A DNA stretch of 64,000 bases, from contig CAINFC010000252.1 of the NCBI GenBank assembly GCA_903847975.1, positions 124,001 through 188,000 on the forward strand, in the 5' to 3' direction. The stretch is from an uncultured Acidobacteriota bacterium. Its GTDB lineage: Bacteria > Acidobacteriota > UBA6911 > CAINFC01. A model generated the notes under the pieces. That model had not been told where the DNA came from and did no database searches. It saw only the letters and a program-made list of their open reading frames with translations. This document shows positions 9,475 to 49,188 of this stretch, in pieces; within the stretch, counting starts at the first letter, position 1, and the number at the start of each line of letters is the position of its first letter. Position numbers and translations under genes: made by a program.

Positions 9475-10737
9475 ATGAAAACCAGAGATCTGGAACGAGC
9501 CTACGCCCTGGCCCAACAATGCTACGCCGAAGCCGGAGTGGATACGGAAGCCGCCCTCAAGAAGCTGTCCGGCGTGTCCGTCTCCATGCACTGCTGGCAG
9601 GGTGACGATGTGGGAGGTTTTGAAAATGCCGGAGGCTCGCTCAGCGACGGTCTGGCGGTGACCGGTAACTACCCGGGCAAAGCCCGGAGTCCGCAGGAGC
9701 TGCGGGCCGATTACGAAAAGGCGGTATCGCTGATCCCCGGCAAGCATCGCTTCAACCTGCATGCCTCCTACGCGGAAATGGGCGGAAAGCGGGCCGATCG
9801 GGACGCGCTGGAAGTGGAACACTTCGGAAACTGGATTGCCTGGGCCAAATCCCTGAAGATCGGCATGGATTTCAACCAGACCTACTTTTCCCACCCCAAG
9901 GTGGATCGCGGGCTGACCCTGACCCACCCGAACAAGGCGATCCGCAGCTTCTGGATCCGCCACGGCATCTGCTGCCGGATGATCGGCGCTTCCATCGGCA
10001 AAGCCCTGGGGAAAGGCTGCCTGACCAACCTGTGGATTCCGGACGGGATGAAGGATACGCCCGCCGATCGCCGCGGACCCCGCGAGCGCCTGGCGGAATC
10101 GCTGGATGAAATTTTCGCCGTCAAGATCGAGCCGAAATACAACGTCGACTCGGTGGAACCCAAGCTCTTCGGAATCGGGGCGGAGAGCTACACCCCGGGA
10201 TCGCACGAATTTTACGTCGGCTACGCCGTCAGCCGCAAAGTCCTGCTGACTCTCGATTCCGGGCACTACCACCCCACAGAGGGGATCGCCGACAAAATCA
10301 GCTCCGTGCTGACTTTCCTGCCGGAAATCGCCCTGCATGTCAGCCGCGGGGTGCGCTGGGACAGCGATCACGTGGTCACCCTCAGCGACGACCTGCAGGC
10401 CATTGGTCAGGAAATCGTATGGGGAGGCTATCTCGACCGGATCCGTATCGGACTGGACTATTTTGATGCCAGCATCAACCGCATCGCCGCCTGGGTCATC
10501 GGAACCCGCAACCTGCTCAAGGCCCTGCTTCTGGCGCTGCTGGCGCCCTATCCGCAAATGAAGAAGCTGGAAGCCGAAGGCGATTACACCTCGCGCCTGG
10601 CATTGATGGAGGAGAGCAAGACCATGCCGTTCCGCGCCGTCTGGGATCAGCACTGCCTGCGCTGCGGCGTGCCGGATGGAAGCGGATGGCTGGCCGAAGT
10701 CAAGCGCTACGAAAATGAAGTTCTGGCCAAGCGCTAG
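9475..10737 (+). CDS. rhaA: L-rhamnose isomerase
   Basis: RhaA interconverts L-rhamnose and L-rhamnulose, the first step of rhamnose breakdown. The protein is 420 residues (E. coli RhaA is 419) and is collinear with the family: VSMHCWQGDDVGGFE near the N terminus, the metal/substrate segments FNLHASY, GMDFNQTYFSHPK and IGAESYTPGSHEFY, then TLDSGHYHPTE and VSRGVRWDSDHVV. A GGTGGAG site lies 7 bases before the ATG. It is followed after 24 bases by the rhamnose transporter. Rhamnulokinase and rhamnulose-phosphate aldolase are not in the window. Confidence 0.96.
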   Translation: MKTRDLERAYALAQQCYAEAGVDTEAALKKLSGVSVSMHCWQGDDVGGFENAGGSLSDGLAVTGNYPGKARSPQELRADYEKAVSLIPGKHRFNLHASYAEMGGKRADRDALEVEHFGNWIAWAKSLKIGMDFNQTYFSHPKVDRGLTLTHPNKAIRSFWIRHGICCRMIGASIGKALGKGCLTNLWIPDGMKDTPADRRGPRERLAESLDEIFAVKIEPKYNVDSVEPKLFGIGAESYTPGSHEFYVGYAVSRKVLLTLDSGHYHPTEGIADKISSVLTFLPEIALHVSRGVRWDSDHVVTLSDDLQAIGQEIVWGGYLDRIRIGLDYFDASINRIAAWVIGTRNLLKALLLALLAPYPQMKKLEAEGDYTSRLALMEESKTMPFRAVWDQHCLRCGVPDGSGWLAEVKRYENEVLAKR

Positions 10738-10761: not shown

Positions 10762-11844
10762 ATGGATCAGGCTGCAAATGAATTCTCCAATCCCGCTCTG
10801 GGAGTAGTTCTTTTCATGCTCGGAGGGCTGTCCGGCGCCGTCTTCTACCTGCCTTTTCAAAAGGTCCGGAACTGGGCCTGGGAAAGCTACTGGCTGGTCT
10901 ACGCGGTGGCCGGACTGGTTGCGGTGCCGTGGGTGCTGGGGCTGAGCACCTCTCCCAACCTGCTGTCCGTCCTGCGGCAGGCTCCGGGGCAGACCCTGCT
11001 CTATTGCATGCTCTGCGGAGCCATGTGGGGTGTGGGAGGCCTGACCTGGGGTCTGATGATCCGCTACCTCGGCGTGGGGCTGGGCCTGGCCATCGGCTGC
11101 GGCCTGTGCTCCACCGCCGGAACCCTGGTCCCCCCCATTCTCGAGGGTAACATCGGCCGGCTCTACGGCAGCGGGCCGGCCAACGCCTCGCTGGGGGGAG
11201 TGCTGGTTTCCCTGCTGGGAATCATCCTGGTGGGAATGGCCGGCATGTCCAAGGAAAGCGAGCTGGCGGAAGAAATCAAGAAGAAGGCGGTTGCGGAATA
11301 CAATTTCAAAAAAGGTCTCCTGGTGGCGGTCTTTTCCGGACTGATGAGCTCGGCCATGAATTTCGGGCTGCAGGGAGGCAAGGAGATCGAAAAACTGGCC
11401 CAGACCCTGGAGCCGGCCACGCCTTCCACCTGGAAAGGGATACCGGTCCTGGTGGTCGTCCTGCTGGGCGGTTTTCTGATCAATTTCTCCTGGTGCCTGT
11501 ATCTCAACTTTAAAAACAAAACCCTACGGGACTATGTCCGCAAGGACGCGCCGCTGCCGGCCAATCTTTTCTTCGCCGGGCTGGCAGGCGCCATCTGGTG
11601 TTCGCAGTTCATATTCTTCAAGACCGGGGAGCCGGCCATGGGCCGGATGGCCTATATCGGCTGGGCGGTGCTGATGGCCAGCGCCATTCTGTTCAGCACC
11701 CTGCTCGGCATGTTTCTGGGTGAGTGGAAGGAGACTAGCGGCAAAACCCGCGGATTGCTGGCGGTCGGATTGCTGCTGCTGCTCCTTTCCACCATGCTGG
11801 CCGCTTACAGCGGGTACCTGGGACAGGCCGCCGCCGGAGGATAG
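10762..11844 (+). CDS. rhaT: L-rhamnose:H+ symporter
   Basis: This 360-residue inner-membrane protein has about ten hydrophobic segments and the drug/metabolite-transporter-type fold of RhaT. Recognisable stretches are FYLPFQKVRNWAWESYWL, AMWGVGGLTWGLMIRYLGVGLG and GCGLCSTAGTLVPPI. It is paired with rhaA (24-base gap, GGGAGG before the ATG), which supports rhamnose as substrate. Its stop lies 7 bases from the convergent histidine kinase gene. Confidence 0.94.
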   Translation: MDQAANEFSNPALGVVLFMLGGLSGAVFYLPFQKVRNWAWESYWLVYAVAGLVAVPWVLGLSTSPNLLSVLRQAPGQTLLYCMLCGAMWGVGGLTWGLMIRYLGVGLGLAIGCGLCSTAGTLVPPILEGNIGRLYGSGPANASLGGVLVSLLGIILVGMAGMSKESELAEEIKKKAVAEYNFKKGLLVAVFSGLMSSAMNFGLQGGKEIEKLAQTLEPATPSTWKGIPVLVVVLLGGFLINFSWCLYLNFKNKTLRDYVRKDAPLPANLFFAGLAGAIWCSQFIFFKTGEPAMGRMAYIGWAVLMASAILFSTLLGMFLGEWKETSGKTRGLLAVGLLLLLLSTMLAAYSGYLGQAAAGG

Positions 11845-41778: not shown

Positions 41779-43107
41779 TCATTTTATTTCATTTTTGAAA
41801 AGGGAAACCGCCTCTCCGGCCAGGAGAATGACGGCGACCAGGTTGAACAGGGCCTGCAGCCCATTCAAAAAATCGCCGTAAAGCCAAACCAAATCAATCG
41901 TCGAAATCGCTCCGACGGGCACGATCAGGCAGTAGGCCCACCGGTAGGGTAGAGCCACCTTGCGCCCCAGTAGGAACTCAAAGGACTTTTCCCCGTAGTA
42001 GGACCACCCGATCAGGTTGGTATAGGCAAAAAGCGTGCAGCTGACGGCAACAATCCAACCGCCCCATCCGGGCAGGGCGGCATGGAATCCGGAAGCCACC
42101 AGCGGAGCCCCGCGTAAGCCGCTGGACCACACGCCGGAAACGGTGATCACCATGGCGGTCGTAGTGCAGGTGATAAAAGTGATGACGAAGCAGTCCAGCA
42201 TGGCAATCAGCCCCTGACGGACGGGAAGCCGGCTCTGGGAAACCCCATAAAGGTAAGCGGCGGTTCCCAGGCCCGCCTCGTTGGCGTAAACGCCTCTGGC
42301 CAGCCCGAACCGCATGGCCTGCCACACGCCGGCCCCGGCAAAACCGCCCAGAGCAGCCTGGGGGCTGAAGGCGGCCTGGAATATCAGCAGGAGGGTGGCC
42401 GGCAGCCGGTCGAGGAAAAAGACAAAAACCAACAGGGAGCCGCCCACATACAGCAGGAGCTTCAGGGGCACCAGCTTTTCCGCCCAGGCCGCAATGCGCT
42501 TCAATCCGCCGATCACCACCAGAAAAACGGCCACAAACAGGCTCGCCGCGCTGACCCAGCGGGGAACGGAAAATTCGGATTCCAGCACCGTGCTGATGGT
42601 ATTCGATTGCACCATGGGACCGGTGGAGGCCGCCGCCAGCCCGGCCACCAGGGCAAATACCGCTGCCAAAAAAGGCCAGCGCAGGCCGTCGCGCAGGTAG
42701 TACATCGGTCCTGCCGAATAGCGGCCATCGGGGTCCTTCACCCGGAAATGAAAACCGAGCAGCGCTTCCGTGAACTTCAAAGCCATGCTCAGCCCTCCGG
42801 CAATCCACATCCAGAATACCGCCCCCGGACCTCCCGTGGCGATGGCGGTTGCCACTCCGGCAATATTCCCGCTGCCGATCGCTCCGGCCAGCATCGTCAG
42901 GAAGGAGCGCCAGGGAGAAATTTCACCCCCCTGGTCCGCCTGCCCCGGTTCAACGGAAAAAGCGGCCACACAGGCCCGGCGAAAAGAACGGATCTGAGGC
43001 AGGCCGAGACGGAAGGTCAGGTAAAAAGAAACCAGCAGAAAAAAAACCAGCGTAGGCGGACCCCAGACCGCCCCGCTCAAAACGCTGAAAAGCTGTTCGG
43101 CAGTCAT
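41779..43107 (-). CDS. Sodium:alanine/glycine symporter (AGCS family)
   Basis: The 442-residue membrane protein has about ten hydrophobic segments and the AGCS signature GAIGSGNIAGVATAIATGGPGAVFWMW. It also has FHFRVKDPDGRYSAGPMYYL, GVYANEAGLGTAAYLYG and GWSYYGEKSFEFLLG. It imports small neutral amino acids with Na+. The ATG at 43107 has GAGG 10 bases upstream; an open extension to 43272 runs into pduT and is not used. It follows pduT by 124 bases on the same strand and could be cotranscribed. Confidence 0.92.
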   Translation of the reverse strand: MTAEQLFSVLSGAVWGPPTLVFFLLVSFYLTFRLGLPQIRSFRRACVAAFSVEPGQADQGGEISPWRSFLTMLAGAIGSGNIAGVATAIATGGPGAVFWMWIAGGLSMALKFTEALLGFHFRVKDPDGRYSAGPMYYLRDGLRWPFLAAVFALVAGLAAASTGPMVQSNTISTVLESEFSVPRWVSAASLFVAVFLVVIGGLKRIAAWAEKLVPLKLLLYVGGSLLVFVFFLDRLPATLLLIFQAAFSPQAALGGFAGAGVWQAMRFGLARGVYANEAGLGTAAYLYGVSQSRLPVRQGLIAMLDCFVITFITCTTTAMVITVSGVWSSGLRGAPLVASGFHAALPGWGGWIVAVSCTLFAYTNLIGWSYYGEKSFEFLLGRKVALPYRWAYCLIVPVGAISTIDLVWLYGDFLNGLQALFNLVAVILLAGEAVSLFKNEIK

Positions 43108-43231: not shown

Positions 43232-43795
43232 TCAAATGAATTCTCCAAACAGCTCCGGACGCGGAGCTGCAATCACCACCTGATGGACCAGCATGCCACG
43301 CTGGCTGACGGCGGAGGCAGCCGCTTCCACCGCGGCGGTGACGGCCGCGACACTCCCGGTCAGCATCAGGTATCCTTTGCCGCCGACCGCCATGGCCACA
43401 TGAATTCGAAACACCAGCACATCCGCCGCTTTGGCAGCGGCATCGGCCCCCTCGAGGATGCTGGCTGCGGAAAAGGACTCCACCACTCCCAGAGATTCCG
43501 CGTTAAATCCAGACAAATCCACCGCACCGCTCAGAGCGGGAAAGCACTGCTCATGGATATTGGGGATGACCAGCTCTTCAATCAGAAAGCCGGAGCTTGC
43601 GGAAATTCCGGCATCCACGCTGGCGCGCACCGCGGCGACATCGCCGCCGACCAGAATCAGGTACTTCCCGGAGCAGATGGTTCGGGCCAGGATCAGCTTC
43701 ACCGCCGAGGCTTTCAGCATGGCGTCCTGGGCAACCTGACCGGCGGCAATGCTGGAAAGCTCAAGCATCCCAATGGCGGATTGACTCGCAATCAT
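43232..43795 (-). CDS. pduT: Tandem-BMC shell protein, PduT type
   Basis: The 187-residue protein contains two bacterial-microcompartment domains. Domain 1 (about 5-90): AIGMLELSSIAAGQVAQDAML, TICSGKYLILVGGDVAAV. Domain 2 (about 100-185): SLGVVESFSAASILEGADAAAKAA, MAVGGKGYLMLTGSVAAV. The layout and sequence match PduT, a trimeric shell protein with an Fe-S cluster in its pore. Candidate ligands here are Cys41 and Cys84; which one binds the cluster is not resolvable. GAGG lies 8 bases before the ATG at 43795. It follows pduS by 25 bases. No other shell or core enzyme gene is in the window. Confidence 0.9.
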   Translation of the reverse strand: MIASQSAIGMLELSSIAAGQVAQDAMLKASAVKLILARTICSGKYLILVGGDVAAVRASVDAGISASSGFLIEELVIPNIHEQCFPALSGAVDLSGFNAESLGVVESFSAASILEGADAAAKAADVLVFRIHVAMAVGGKGYLMLTGSVAAVTAAVEAAASAVSQRGMLVHQVVIAAPRPELFGEFI

Positions 43796-43820
43796 AGAAA
43801 GAACCTCATCCCTCGCCTTT

Positions 43821-45125
43821 TCAGGCTTCCACAATTATTTCCGGGTCTATCGCCGTCACGCGTCCGTCCATGGAGGAGTGCAGGCTGCAGCCCAACTGCC
43901 CTTCCTTTACAGCGGCCACCAGAGTCCCCTTGGCCACCCGATCCCCGGGCCGGACCACCGCTTCGGCGGGCGGTCCCACGTGCTGCTTTTTCGGCAGCAC
44001 AATGCGCCGGGTTTCCAGAACCCCGGGCCGCAGCGGCCCGTGGTTGTCATAGCGATCCAGACCCAGCCGGCGAATCAGGTTGGGCAGAGGTGTCTTACGC
44101 CCTTCCGCCATGGGACGAACCTGGCAAGGCTGTCCGGCCTGGGGATGCTTCTTGCCGGCAGCGCGGATCATCTGTTTGGACTGCACGCACACGTTTTTAG
44201 GATCCAGGCCTTCCGGGCATGCGTACAGGGAACACAGGTTGCATTCACAGCAGAACTCGGTGCCGGGAACCATGGTGGTCCCGCGGGAAGTGAACACCAG
44301 GCCCCGCATGGCCTTGTGCGGTTCGATCGGATGACCCAATAAATAGCGCGGGCAAAGCTCCGTGCAGAAAGAACATTGGTCGCACGCCGATTTGCCGATG
44401 CGGTTAATGACCTGGTAGGTCATCTTTCTTCGCTGCACCAGCGGGTGGTCGACCGGCAGGACCAGGAATCCCCCGCAGGTCTTGGTTACCGGCCGCTGCA
44501 CATCGGTTTCCAGGATACCCATCATCGGACCGCCGATCAGCAGATGATAGGAAGGGCAGGTGGCCCCGCCCGCAGCGGCAATGGCTTCGGCATAGGAAAT
44601 CCCGACCGGCACACGCACCGTACAGGGCGTGCGGACCGCGCCAGCCACCGTGAGAAACTTTTCCACCACCGGGGTTCGATGGTGCACATTCCACAGGGTC
44701 TCCACATTGCAGACCACCGCGCCGACGTCCAGCGGGAGAGCCCCGGGTGGAATGACGCGCCCGACCGTTTCTTTCACCAGGACGAACTCGTCGCCGGTGG
44801 GGTAATAGTCCCCCAGCGCGTGGACCCGCACGGAGTCCCCCACCAGCGATCCGACCCGCGCGATGACATCGGTATATTTGTTTTTGATACCGATGATGCC
44901 CTGCCGGGCATGAGCCAGCCCCATGACCCGCTTCAGTCCGGAAATGACTTCTTCCGGATAATGCCGCAAAATCTCCTTGTCCTTGTGCATCAGGGGTTCG
45001 CATTCGGCAGCATTGACCACGACCACTTCCGCCGGGCGCAGCAGCTTGGCATAGGTGGGAAAGCCCGCCCCGCCGGCGCCGACCACGCCGTTGGATTGCA
45101 GTTCCTGAAGGTCCGGGGGAATCAT
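43821..45125 (-). CDS. pduS: PduS-type RnfC-like electron-transfer protein
   Basis: The 434-residue protein has the RnfC/NuoF-like flavin-nucleotide fold (GVVGAGGAGFPTYAKL, NAAECEPLMHKDKE) and an SLBB segment. It has two ferredoxin-type cysteine sets (CDQCSFCTELCPRY, then CCECNLCSLYACPEG) and a C-terminal lipoyl-like domain (VRPGDRVAKGTLVAAV). PduS feeds electrons to cobalamin reactivation in propanediol microcompartments and docks to PduT. Adjacency to pduT supports that assignment. It starts 35 bases after hpt on the same strand. Confidence 0.9.
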   Translation of the reverse strand: MIPPDLQELQSNGVVGAGGAGFPTYAKLLRPAEVVVVNAAECEPLMHKDKEILRHYPEEVISGLKRVMGLAHARQGIIGIKNKYTDVIARVGSLVGDSVRVHALGDYYPTGDEFVLVKETVGRVIPPGALPLDVGAVVCNVETLWNVHHRTPVVEKFLTVAGAVRTPCTVRVPVGISYAEAIAAAGGATCPSYHLLIGGPMMGILETDVQRPVTKTCGGFLVLPVDHPLVQRRKMTYQVINRIGKSACDQCSFCTELCPRYLLGHPIEPHKAMRGLVFTSRGTTMVPGTEFCCECNLCSLYACPEGLDPKNVCVQSKQMIRAAGKKHPQAGQPCQVRPMAEGRKTPLPNLIRRLGLDRYDNHGPLRPGVLETRRIVLPKKQHVGPPAEAVVRPGDRVAKGTLVAAVKEGQLGCSLHSSMDGRVTAIDPEIIVEA

Positions 45126-45160: not shown

Positions 45161-45706
45161 TTAAATTTCCACTATGGCCAGGAAGGGCAGGTTCCGGTAC
45201 TGCTGTCCGTAGTCCAGGCCGTAGCCGACCACAAATTTATCAGGGATTTCGAATCCGATGTAATCCACGTGAATATCCACTTTTCGCCGGGACGGTTTGC
45301 TGAGCAGGGTAATGATGCGCAGAGACTTGGGCTCGCGCTTGCGTAAAATCTCCACCAGGTAGTTCAATGTTAACCCTGTGTCGACGATATCCTCGACCAG
45401 GAGCACATCTTTGCCGGCCAGACTTTCATCCGGATCCTTGAGAATGCGCACTTCGCCGGTGGTCTGGCTGGAATTGCCGTAACTGGAAACCGCAATGAAG
45501 TCGACGGTCACCGGCAGATGGATAGCCCGGATCAAATCGGAATGGAACACGTTGGCTCCCTTTAAAATTCCGATCAGGTGCGGCTGGCAGTCGGCATAAT
45601 CTTCGGTGATCTGCAGGGCCAGCTCCTCGACCCGATGTTTGATTGTCTGGCCATCGATCAGCACCTCTTTTAAATCTTTGTAAAAATGAAAAAATTTCCT
45701 TTCCAT
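45161..45706 (-). CDS. hpt: Hypoxanthine-guanine phosphoribosyltransferase
   Basis: The enzyme salvages hypoxanthine and guanine with PRPP to IMP and GMP. The 181-residue protein has the loop LKGANVFHSDLIRAI, the substrate flap VSSYGNSSQTTG, the PRPP motif VLLVEDIVDTGLTL and the purine-contact region DKFVVGYGLDYGQQYRNLPF. A good promoter precedes it. It is the first gene of a possible hpt-pduS-pduT-AGCS unit. Confidence 0.96.
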   Translation of the reverse strand: MERKFFHFYKDLKEVLIDGQTIKHRVEELALQITEDYADCQPHLIGILKGANVFHSDLIRAIHLPVTVDFIAVSSYGNSSQTTGEVRILKDPDESLAGKDVLLVEDIVDTGLTLNYLVEILRKREPKSLRIITLLSKPSRRKVDIHVDYIGFEIPDKFVVGYGLDYGQQYRNLPFLAIVEI

Positions 45707-45760: not shown

Positions 45761-45790
45761 ATTTTAAAAGGATTTGAGCCATCCTGTCAA
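45761..45790 (-). promoter_or_regulatory. Sigma-70-type promoter of hpt
   Basis: On the minus strand a perfect TTGACA (45790-45785) is separated by 18 bases from TAAAAT (45766-45761). It is 55 bases upstream of the hpt ATG and lies in the gap after the sigma-factor gene. Confidence 0.7.
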
Positions 45791-47502: not shown

Positions 47503-48429
47503 ATGCATCTGATTCGCTTTGAGTGGAAGGGTCGCGTGAGCGTGGGCATCGCCCGCGGGGAAATGCTGGTGGACATGGAAGGAGTCATGGACAGTCTGGC
47601 TAAAAGACTTTCCTGGGAATCGGATTTCCCCCGCGGCAGCATGCGCCGTTTTCTGGATCTCTGCCTGCAGCCGGGAGCCGCCGATGCCACCGCCGAAGCG
47701 ATCGCCAACTGGGGGAACTCGGACAACCCGCAGCTCCTCTTCCACCCGGCGGAAGAGTGCCGGATCCTGGCGCCCATTCATGATCCCGAAAAGATTATTT
47801 GTGTCGGATTGAACTACGCCGATCATGCCACCGAAGGCGGCCGAAAACCGCCGGAGTTTCCGGTGGTCTTTGCCAAGTATCCCAACTGCATCGTCGGCCC
47901 CAACGATAAAGTTATTCTGCCGTCGCAGTACAGCCAACAGGTGGATTACGAGGCGGAACTGGCGGTGATCATCGGCCGCTACACCAAAGAAGTCCCGGAG
48001 GAAAAAGCCTATGAGCATATCGCGGGATTCACCATTCTGAACGACGTCACCGCCCGCGACTTTCAGCGCCAGGACGGTCAGTGGGTGCGGGGCAAAAGCT
48101 GCGACACCTTTGCCCCCATCGGGCCGGCCATGGTTACCCTGGATGAAATCGGCGACCCCCACAACCTGTCGATTACCATGCACGTCAATGGAGAAGAGCG
48201 GCAATCCTCCAACACCTCTGAAATGATTTTCAAGATTCCCTTCCTGGTTTCCTACCTCTCGCGGACCATGACCCTGGTTCCCGGGGACATCATTTCGACC
48301 GGAACGCCCCCCGGAGTAGGCGTTTTCCGGCAGCCGCCGGTCTTTCTGCAGCCCGGCGATATCATGGAAGCCAGGATTGAAAAAATCGGCAGCCTGATCA
48401 ATGTCACCGACGGCCGAAGCGTCCATTGA
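47503..48429 (+). CDS. Fumarylacetoacetate hydrolase (FAH) family protein
   Basis: The 308-residue protein has a FAH N-terminal domain and the C-terminal catalytic fold: KIICVGLNYADHATEGG, the metal ligands in DYEAELAVIIG, the TILNDVTARDFQ block, GKSCDTFAPIGPAMV and STGTPPGVG. Family members are hydrolases, decarboxylases or lyases acting on keto acids. It is 39 bases upstream of a lutA-like gene. In some bacteria an FAH enzyme splits 2,4-diketo-3-deoxy-L-rhamnonate to pyruvate and L-lactate, which would fit lactate oxidation next door; no rhamnonate-pathway dehydrogenase is here, so this is conjecture. Confidence 0.9.
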   Translation: MHLIRFEWKGRVSVGIARGEMLVDMEGVMDSLAKRLSWESDFPRGSMRRFLDLCLQPGAADATAEAIANWGNSDNPQLLFHPAEECRILAPIHDPEKIICVGLNYADHATEGGRKPPEFPVVFAKYPNCIVGPNDKVILPSQYSQQVDYEAELAVIIGRYTKEVPEEKAYEHIAGFTILNDVTARDFQRQDGQWVRGKSCDTFAPIGPAMVTLDEIGDPHNLSITMHVNGEERQSSNTSEMIFKIPFLVSYLSRTMTLVPGDIISTGTPPGVGVFRQPPVFLQPGDIMEARIEKIGSLINVTDGRSVH

Positions 48430-48468: not shown

Positions 48469-49188
48469 GTGAAGGTCAGCCTTTTCATTACCTGCCTGGT
48501 GGATGAGTTCTTTCCCCAGGTGGGCCAAGCCATGGTGCAGGTCCTGGAGCGGCTGGGAATCGACCTGGACTTCCCGCCGGGTCAGACCTGCTGCGGGCAG
48601 CCAGCCTACAATATGGGTCACCAGTGCGATGCCCGCCGCGCCGCCGAAAGGTACCTTCACATCTTTCGAAACAGCGAGTGGGTCGTAGCCCCTTCCGGCT
48701 CCTGCACGAGCATGGTGCGTCATCACTATCCTCTGCTGTTTGCCGATGACCCTCGCCTCCGGGCGGAAGCGGAATCGCTGGCCGCCCGCTGTTTTGAATT
48801 CTCCGAGTTTCTGGTCCGCATTTTAAAGACCGAAGATGTCGGCGCGTTCTTCCCCCACCGGGTTACCTATCATGACAGCTGCCACCTGCTGCGCATGCTG
48901 GGCCTGCAGGAGGAACCGCGCAAGCTGATTCGCTCAGTGCGCGGCATCGAACTGGTGGAAATGAACGACTCCTCCGTCTGCTGCGGATTTGGAGGAGCCT
49001 TTTCCGTCAAGCTGCCCCATTTATCCACCGCGATGATGGAAGACAAGCTGGCCCATATTCAGGCTTCCGGAGCGCAGTACCTGATTGCCGCCGATGCGGG
49101 CTGCCTGATGAACATCGGGGGCGGCGCCCGGCGGCGCCAGCTCCCGATCCAGACGCTGCACCTGATCGAGCTGCTGGCCCGTCGCTAG
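48469..49188 (+). CDS. LutA/YkgE-type CCG-domain oxidoreductase subunit
   Basis: The 239-residue protein has the two cysteine-rich CCG domains of the LutA/GlpC/HdrB family. The first is CLVDEFFPQVGQAMVQVLE with TCCGQPAYNMG. The second is HDSCHLLRMLG with VCCGFGGAFSVK. LutA forms an iron-sulfur L-lactate dehydrogenase with LutB and LutC; those two are not adjacent here. The GTG at 48469 has GGGAG 9 bases upstream. It sits between the FAH gene and a HAD hydrolase gene, 1 base before the latter. Confidence 0.87.
   Translation: MKVSLFITCLVDEFFPQVGQAMVQVLERLGIDLDFPPGQTCCGQPAYNMGHQCDARRAAERYLHIFRNSEWVVAPSGSCTSMVRHHYPLLFADDPRLRAEAESLAARCFEFSEFLVRILKTEDVGAFFPHRVTYHDSCHLLRMLGLQEEPRKLIRSVRGIELVEMNDSSVCCGFGGAFSVKLPHLSTAMMEDKLAHIQASGAQYLIAADAGCLMNIGGGARRRQLPIQTLHLIELLARR

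Follow-up and report, generated by a model that had tools for sequence, protein, structure and literature searches.

What does a pduS-pduT gene pair (pduST) do when it stands alone, away from the other genes of a bacterial microcompartment (BMC)? How the electrons of NADH are removed from a sealed compartment is an open question, and PduS and PduT have been proposed as a wire across the shell, an idea put forward as a hypothesis and not as a demonstration in the available parts of PMC2982820, PMC6325248 and PMC8667426. Compartments with a fully unlinked pduST are good places for testing this idea. One such pair lies at positions 43232-45125 of the window, by which we mean the whole 64,000-nucleotide stretch analysed here (C252:124001-188000), taken from a 277,219-bp contig, C252, of an Acidobacteriota genome (G000; 8,130,373 bases in 326 contigs, 99.1% complete). 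On balance, its sequence and that of its genome lead us to read the pair as the predicted electron-transfer arm of one scattered, hybrid metabolosome, the other genes of which probably serve the breakdown of a sugar such as rhamnose.

The two genes encode a PduT-type and a PduS-type protein, with scores far above chance. The pduT-type gene for a BMC-T shell protein (43232..43795, minus strand) gives 187 aa from a likely ATG at 43795, the frame being open to a TTG at 43834, with which the earlier note's span agrees. Its product has two BMC domains (132.5 bits, Pfam cut-off 24.5), and its predicted model (mean pLDDT 94.4) found the PduT structures 3n79, 3pac and 3nwg as top solved matches, with TM scores of 0.82-0.91 by query length. 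The pore motif TICSGKY fits the PduT motif C-P/S/A-G-K/R/S-Y/F (PMC6325248) and holds the conserved cysteine, which was invariant in 38/38 rows of PduS-partnered PduT (alignment A3) and in 12/12 rows of a second alignment (A2). In a convenience control of four BMC-T paralogues without a PduS partner it was missing from all four, the residue being Q in the BMC-T of genome G051 and S, S and Q in the second BMC-T of loci L152, L154 and L184. PduT-like BMC-T proteins without the pore cysteine were seen at L152, L154, L184 and L088, and three of them share a cluster with a PduS-partnered PduT. The pduS-type reductase gene (43821..45125, minus strand, 434 aa, with an FMN-binding domain and two [4Fe-4S] motifs) has the domain order Complex1_51K (140.8 bits), SLBB, Fer4_17, RnfC_N, each over its Pfam cut-off, the domain set given for PduS in PMC6325248. 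Residues 370-429 align to RnfC 28-86 and residues 9-305 to RnfC 127-416, so that RnfC_N stands last in the window protein and the corresponding part first in RnfC; the protein is therefore of the PduS type and not the RnfC type. Identity as RnfC was ruled out by this domain order, and the RnfC model scored 208.6, under its cut-off of 245.95. The cysteines C248xxC251xxC254xxxC258 and C292xxC295xxC298xxxxC303 follow the PduS cluster motifs CxxCxxCxxxC and CxxCxxCxxxxC (PMC2982820), and all eight were invariant in 13/13 aligned PduS proteins. An earlier note, made from the window alone, had placed PduT and PduS side by side here, and Pfam domains, motifs and fold all bear it out.

The note had also described the pair as isolated from other shell genes, and this extends to the whole 277,219 bp of C252, on which no further shell gene comes within 167 kb of pduST in one direction or 108 kb in the other. 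A genome-wide search found seven BMC domains, two of them in pduT, three BMC-P genes and one PduL gene, and no further shell gene on C252. Both contig ends are over 100 kb away from pduST, and a contig break was therefore ruled out as the cause of the isolation. The search located compartment genes in three places besides the window (on contigs C230, C173 and C63), and the window's PduS is the sole PduS-type protein of the genome. The pair is thus a satellite locus, a defined concept (PMC4207490, PMC8217296), because other shell genes stand elsewhere in the same genome: with its one shell gene pduST could not build a shell, and a main locus that has both BMC-H and BMC-P lies at another place. 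By the stricter table of Axen 2014 it would be satellite-like, since PduS is compartment-related. The satellite reading of the earlier note therefore holds; no BMC operon lies adjacent outside the window, and the genome does have other BMC genes.

At C230, between metG and purM, stand a BMC-H gene, three BMC-P genes and a 2-hydroxyacid dehydrogenase gene. C173 carries pduL, a 197-aa double BMC-H, ackA, a further BMC-H, an aldehyde dehydrogenase (AldDH) and a class II aldolase, and ends 1.7 kb past the aldolase. An SDR gene, lutB (508.4 bits, cut-off 444.8) and a lutC-like LUD gene are divergent from this set, and 5 kb away from pduL there is a gene for a zinc-type (MDR) dehydrogenase. The AldDH matches NCBIfam NF011927 (616.9 bits, cut-off 403), which we take to be the EutE/PduP type; a search with it found no second enzyme of its kind in the genome, the next best match being 26% identical and part of adhE. 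Class II aldolases were detected in the genome only at C173 and C316. The C173 enzyme has a class II aldolase domain (164.6 bits), and its NCBIfam scores do not settle the substrate, as all 25 matches listed fall under their cut-offs, the best being 3-oxo-tetronate 4-phosphate decarboxylase at 145 bits. Read by eye, PduL and AldDH each seem to start with an encapsulation helix, and the aldolase seems to end with one. The genome has a single set of BMC-P vertices, that of C230, and C173 has none, and therefore C173 must borrow BMC-P if its shell is closed. Mis-binning of C173 is unlikely, its tetranucleotide make-up being the same as that of C252: the distance to the C252 centroid is 0.077-0.106 for pieces of C173, C230 and C63, 0.069-0.101 for pieces of C252 itself, and 0.267-0.457 for 12 stretches from other genomes. 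The double BMC-H (L013:10390-10983) is a natural fusion of two BMC-H domains. Compared with another acidobacterial genome, G028, the order is swapped: domain 1 best matches the second BMC-H gene there (58/88 aligned columns identical) and domain 2 the first (53/81). The fusion may be a tandem shell protein of recent origin, different from known BMC-T.

How unusual is such a satellite? Among 297 Acidobacteriota genomes, PduS (at least 360 bits, with lower matches of at most 225 bits taken as RnfC) was found in 36, at 40 loci, and a BMC domain in 130. BMC domains beyond the two of PduT were present in 33/36 PduS genomes, and any BMC domain in 95/261 genomes without PduS; the three exceptions are G070 (80% complete) and G161 (67% complete), each with two BMC domains only, and G089, with none and a lone PduS-like gene. 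A locus was called a satellite when no BMC-H, BMC-P, PduL, AldDH or aldolase match above 45 bits lay within 10 kb and each flank was at least 5 kb, using hidden Markov models seeded mainly from Acidobacteriota, by which divergent genes could be missed; ackA is outside this rule, and two satellites (L160, L176) have an ackA match within reach. By this rule the 39 other acidobacterial PduS loci comprise 18 clustered with compartment genes, 11 isolated, five with short flanks (2-5 kb on the shorter side) and five near a contig end. Eight of the 11 isolated loci carry pduT, and each of their genomes (G039, G084, G275, G095, G067, G091, G102, G079) has at least one further BMC domain; in 7/8 the fetched loci show BMC-H together with BMC-P or an aldolase (BMC-H and aldolase only in G084 and G095). 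A second set of named loci from several phyla, the best 80 of 580 by similarity and not a random sample, holds 34 clusters, 19 satellites (17 with pduT), 11 short loci and 16 at edges, its satellites coming from Planctomycetota, Ignavibacteriota, Latescibacterota, Desulfoluna, Verrucomicrobiota, Elusimicrobiota and Acidobacteriota among others. The two samples share one PduS record (L168 = L215, at contig ends in both) and no other duplicate. Read by eye, the neighbours of the named satellites vary (argF-, dnaX- and MATE-like genes). The earlier note had called a redox-only module striking; the module is real, but it is not a rarity, as two-gene pduST pairs recur in many genomes. In family f26 (L085/G052, L221/G065, L223/G100, L224/G077) a second PduS without pduT occurs besides the clustered one, and these lone copies form a clade. 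No COX1 match was found in 9/35 genomes with PduS and BMC domains versus 5/95 with BMC domains and no PduS (Fisher p 0.002, kinship ignored), an anaerobic correlate of PduS that is suggestive only; the window's genome itself has COX1 matches.

Comparison of the scattered genes suggests a hybrid pedigree, in which C230 is like the resident ACI type and the C173 enzymes are like pduST-pduL-ackA-aldolase operons. The BMC-H, BMC-P1-3 and dehydrogenase of C230 are mostly closest to same-class ACI-type loci in G003 (L258), G005 (L110) and G022 (L091). For PduL, AckA, AldDH and aldolase of C173 the best matches, in varying order, lie in operons of G028 (L076), G192 (L213) and G301 (L217) and in the deltaproteobacterial L135, with further best matches in Phycisphaerae for PduL (L124) and Ignavibacteriae for AckA (L149). 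The operon of G028 and G301 runs pduS, pduT, pduL, BMC-H, BMC-H, ackA, BMC-H, BMC-P, aldDH, BMC-P, BMC-P, aldolase, and the order at C173 is the same minus pduST and BMC-P and with two BMC-H fused. The window PduS appears to resemble these operons too, less firmly than the C173 enzymes do. A first tree, from which L168, L166, L227 and L228 were omitted, put it within a 27-row set of such operons and satellites (SH-aLRT 97), and in a second it adjoins Omnitrophota L117 (93/82), with low inner support. Grouping it with 16 other loci, including those of same-class G022 and G018, was rejected (p 3e-5; groups named after the first tree). We infer that pduST may once have headed the C173 operon and then come loose, and that an aldolase core from another lineage may have displaced the ACI enzymes but kept the ACI vertices. 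ACI-type relatives have an aldolase before BMC-H (e.g. L089, L091, L093, L110, L245, L250, L254, L255, L258) or an AldDH beside a second BMC-H (L090, L094, L111, L114, L243, L248, L249, L251, L257, L260), and the window's genome has no aldolase at C230 and no AldDH at C63. At C63 a lone BMC-H gene is followed, 22 bp further, by a VTT-domain (DedA-like) gene (L014:8899-9850). In L111 and L260 the AldDH sits between BMC-H and the DedA-like gene, and C63 looks like enzyme loss from an ACI satellite. No second genome of the host's genus turned up.

In the organelle that these genes would form, rhamnulose- or fuculose-1-phosphate would be cleaved to give lactaldehyde, the CoA-acylating dehydrogenase would turn this into lactyl-CoA and NADH, and PduL and AckA would convert lactyl-CoA to lactate and ATP. 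Within the shell PduS would be docked on PduT and would reoxidise NADH by way of its FMN and its two [4Fe-4S] clusters; the pore cluster of PduT would pass the electrons to a cytoplasmic carrier, PduST replacing, wholly or partly, the alcohol dehydrogenase of standard metabolosomes; the lactate would then be oxidised by LutABC. That PduST is the NADH outlet is our preferred reading, though we are surer of the anatomy than of this role. Recombinant Citrobacter PduS contains FMN along with two [4Fe-4S] centres; it binds PduT and accepts electrons from NADH, and the reported potentials are -262/-150 mV for PduS and +99 mV for PduT (PMC2982820). Electron export has been proposed in that paper, for glycyl-radical compartments (PMC6325248) and for Bilophila, in a cluster without an alcohol dehydrogenase (PMC8667426); the chemistry proposed for the PVM compartment splits lactaldehyde between lactate and propanediol (PMC6620236). 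A family scan of C173, C230 and C63 found no iron-type alcohol dehydrogenase. Among loci with PduS, aldolase and AldDH, the iron-type gene is present in 0/12 from outside Firmicutes (some cut by contig ends) and in 5/9 from Firmicutes.

Several observations weigh against this reading. Iron-type genes lie near PduS loci outside that set (the satellite L141 and L120, L180, L190, L192, L193), and the window's genome has five iron-type family matches elsewhere, one of them adhE and one weak. The SDR (divergent from pduL) or the zinc-type dehydrogenase of C173 could reduce lactaldehyde, a zinc-type enzyme being predicted to act as the alcohol dehydrogenase in a GRM5 locus (PMC4207490), and the 2-hydroxyacid dehydrogenase of C230 could likewise use NADH; the reductases near C173 make a rival NADH outlet a less probable alternative. 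The reported +99 mV of PduT restricts the possible electron acceptors (PMC2982820). PduT itself scores 101.4 bits on NCBIfam TIGR02526, under the equivalog cut-off of 250.3, and is therefore a PduT-type homologue and no NCBIfam PduT equivalog. Its best matches are mixed (L117, L205, L158, L134), so PduT alone is no pointer to the C173 pedigree, and a grouping of the window PduS with satellites of same-phylum family f13 was not rejected (p 0.098; groups again named after the first tree). Three f38 loci (L246, L247, L253) have BMC-H and BMC-P and no aldolase match, and the lack of an aldolase at C230 is therefore no proof of displacement. Motif comparison found no regulatory sign common to pduST and C173 or rhaA: no promoter motif common to C173, C230, C63, rhaA and hpt beat the shuffles (each also occurred in at least 4/30). 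Co-regulation with rhaA, which the earlier note had suggested checking, is thus not seen, and pduST instead follows hpt behind a sigma-70-like match.

The hpt gene (hypoxanthine phosphoribosyltransferase; 45161..45706, minus strand; HGPRTase 231 bits, cut-off 150) precedes pduS by about 35 bp on that strand and is likely the first gene of the pduST transcript. Upstream of it lies the match to a sigma-70-like promoter, TTGACA-18-TAAAAT (45761..45790, minus strand), a consensus match only, at 11/12 positions, found once in the region versus a mean of 1.5 in shuffles. This arrangement and the separation of pduST from the rest would also suit a relic or side path left by operon break-up and expressed with hpt, NADH being balanced by the SDR, zinc-type, unlinked iron-type or 2-hydroxyacid dehydrogenase, for which the SDR and zinc-type genes stand on C173 and the iron-type genes elsewhere in the genome. 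No kept neighbourhood speaks for the pair either, as the window's hpt, agcS, FAH and lutA were found in 0/119 other PduS loci (E 1e-12). We nevertheless think a relic unlikely: both genes are intact, none of the eight cluster cysteines of PduS has been lost, nor has the pore cysteine of PduT, and many genomes with compartment genes still carry a pduST satellite. Work in the opposite direction, with PduST feeding electrons inward to a reductive step (corrin reduction or radical-enzyme activation), has a precedent in Citrobacter PduS, an NADH-dependent corrin reductase (PMC2982820); it seems quite improbable here, as no B12-dependent dehydratase or glycyl radical enzyme was found among the genes called and scanned at the compartment loci, to which the search was confined.

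The two pedigrees could instead belong to two distinct compartments. C230 and C63 would then make an ACI-type shell, and C173 together with C252 another that either does without BMC-P or is left open; compartment types can co-occur in one genome (PMC8217296). The ACI-type enzymes that the first would use were not found, however, with no aldolase at C230 and, unlike L111 and L260, no AldDH at C63, and there is one BMC-P set only, all of which makes two compartments an improbable arrangement. Starting again from a single scattered metabolosome, we offer a wider proposal, tentatively and with its chances as a whole well short of even. In it, pduST would be a portable two-gene electron-export plug-in, taken up by different compartment types and kept unlinked; the window's genome would build one organelle from two lineages in four places, with ACI vertices and tiles and a foreign aldolase core displacing the ACI aldolase and dehydrogenase; and the PduST outlet would let lactaldehyde go fully to lactate, not half to propanediol. 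A two-lineage shell, if true, would show that nature can combine vertices of one compartment type with tiles of another.

Set beside known systems, the window pair shares with the PduS-PduT of Pdu (Citrobacter, Salmonella) and glycyl-radical compartments the same four PduS domains, the two four-cysteine motifs, the PduT fold, the pore cysteine and the tandem gene order (PMC2982820, PMC6325248). Those pairs lie inside a compartment operon with a B12 or glycyl radical enzyme, whereas the window pair has no such operon around it, and a class II aldolase is the probable signature enzyme. C230 is like the ACI compartment (PMC8217296) in its BMC-H, BMC-P triplet and 2-hydroxyacid dehydrogenase and in having the AldDH at another place, ACI being described with AldDH on a satellite. 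ACI is recognised by a single locus that combines a BMC-P triplet, a hydroxyacid dehydrogenase and an aldolase bearing a C-terminal encapsulation peptide; of these, C230 lacks the aldolase, and PduL, AckA and AldDH are closest to another pedigree. With PVM, PVM-like and SPU-like compartments (PMC4207490, PMC8217296, PMC6620236) C173 has in common a class II aldolase, an aldehyde dehydrogenase, PduL, AckA and the proposed conversion of lactaldehyde to lactate; it differs in having no BMC-P or iron-type alcohol dehydrogenase, in the BMC-H fusion and in the position of pduST elsewhere. FRAG compartments, with shell genes in up to six places (PMC8217296), are recognised by several shell-gene places and a BMC-P triplet. 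Going by gene placement, both are present here, in four places; unlike in FRAG, a recognisable enzyme core and a redox pair belong to the set. We found no description of a pduST-only satellite in the open-access literature searched, including the available parts of PMC4207490, which is weak evidence of novelty, and 'PduS' does not appear in the main text of PMC8217296.

What would such a compartment be fed? A tie to rhamnose is plausible because rhaA and rhaT are in the window, rhaA or an FGGY kinase occurs in PduS clusters elsewhere and the lut genes are split; the aldolase, AldDH, PduL and AckA of C173 would fit a lactaldehyde route. The L-rhamnose isomerase gene rhaA (9475..10737, plus strand; 652 bits, cut-off 572) is followed by rhaT of the L-rhamnose:H+ symporter family (10762..11844, plus strand; Pfam 182 bits, cut-off 27; NCBIfam 362.7, under the cut-off of 468). 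Clusters L148, L185, L170, L133 and L076 have rhaA or an FGGY kinase, L167 also has a rhaA fragment, and L148 holds a lutB homologue as well. The earlier note had named rhamnose as a source of lactaldehyde and propanediol; the first part stands as plausible, and the propanediol route is not supported, as neither a dehydratase nor a glycyl radical enzyme was seen among the genes called at the compartment loci, to which that search was confined. The note's neighbours, a purine salvage gene and an amino acid symporter, both score over their cut-offs, as hpt and as agcS of the sodium:alanine symporter family (41779..43107, minus strand; 406.8 bits, cut-off 272.65). The minus-strand order is rpoH-like, hpt, pduS, pduT, agcS. 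No functional link of agcS to pduST is apparent, and RpoH-like matches at 32-33% in 5 of the 119 other PduS loci resemble general sigma factors. A lutA-like gene with CCG domains (48469..49188, plus strand) completes the split lut genes, with lutB and the lutC-like gene beside the C173 enzyme locus; after it, the closest matches in the genome are stretches of longer frames, at 33-34% identity. Its position 3.3 kb from pduS is odd and was spotted after the fact. Directly before it lies an FAH-family gene (47503-48429), whose best NCBIfam match is 2,4-didehydro-3-deoxy-L-rhamnonate hydrolase (239.9 bits, cut-off 500), which belongs to a different rhamnose pathway, one ending in lactate and pyruvate.

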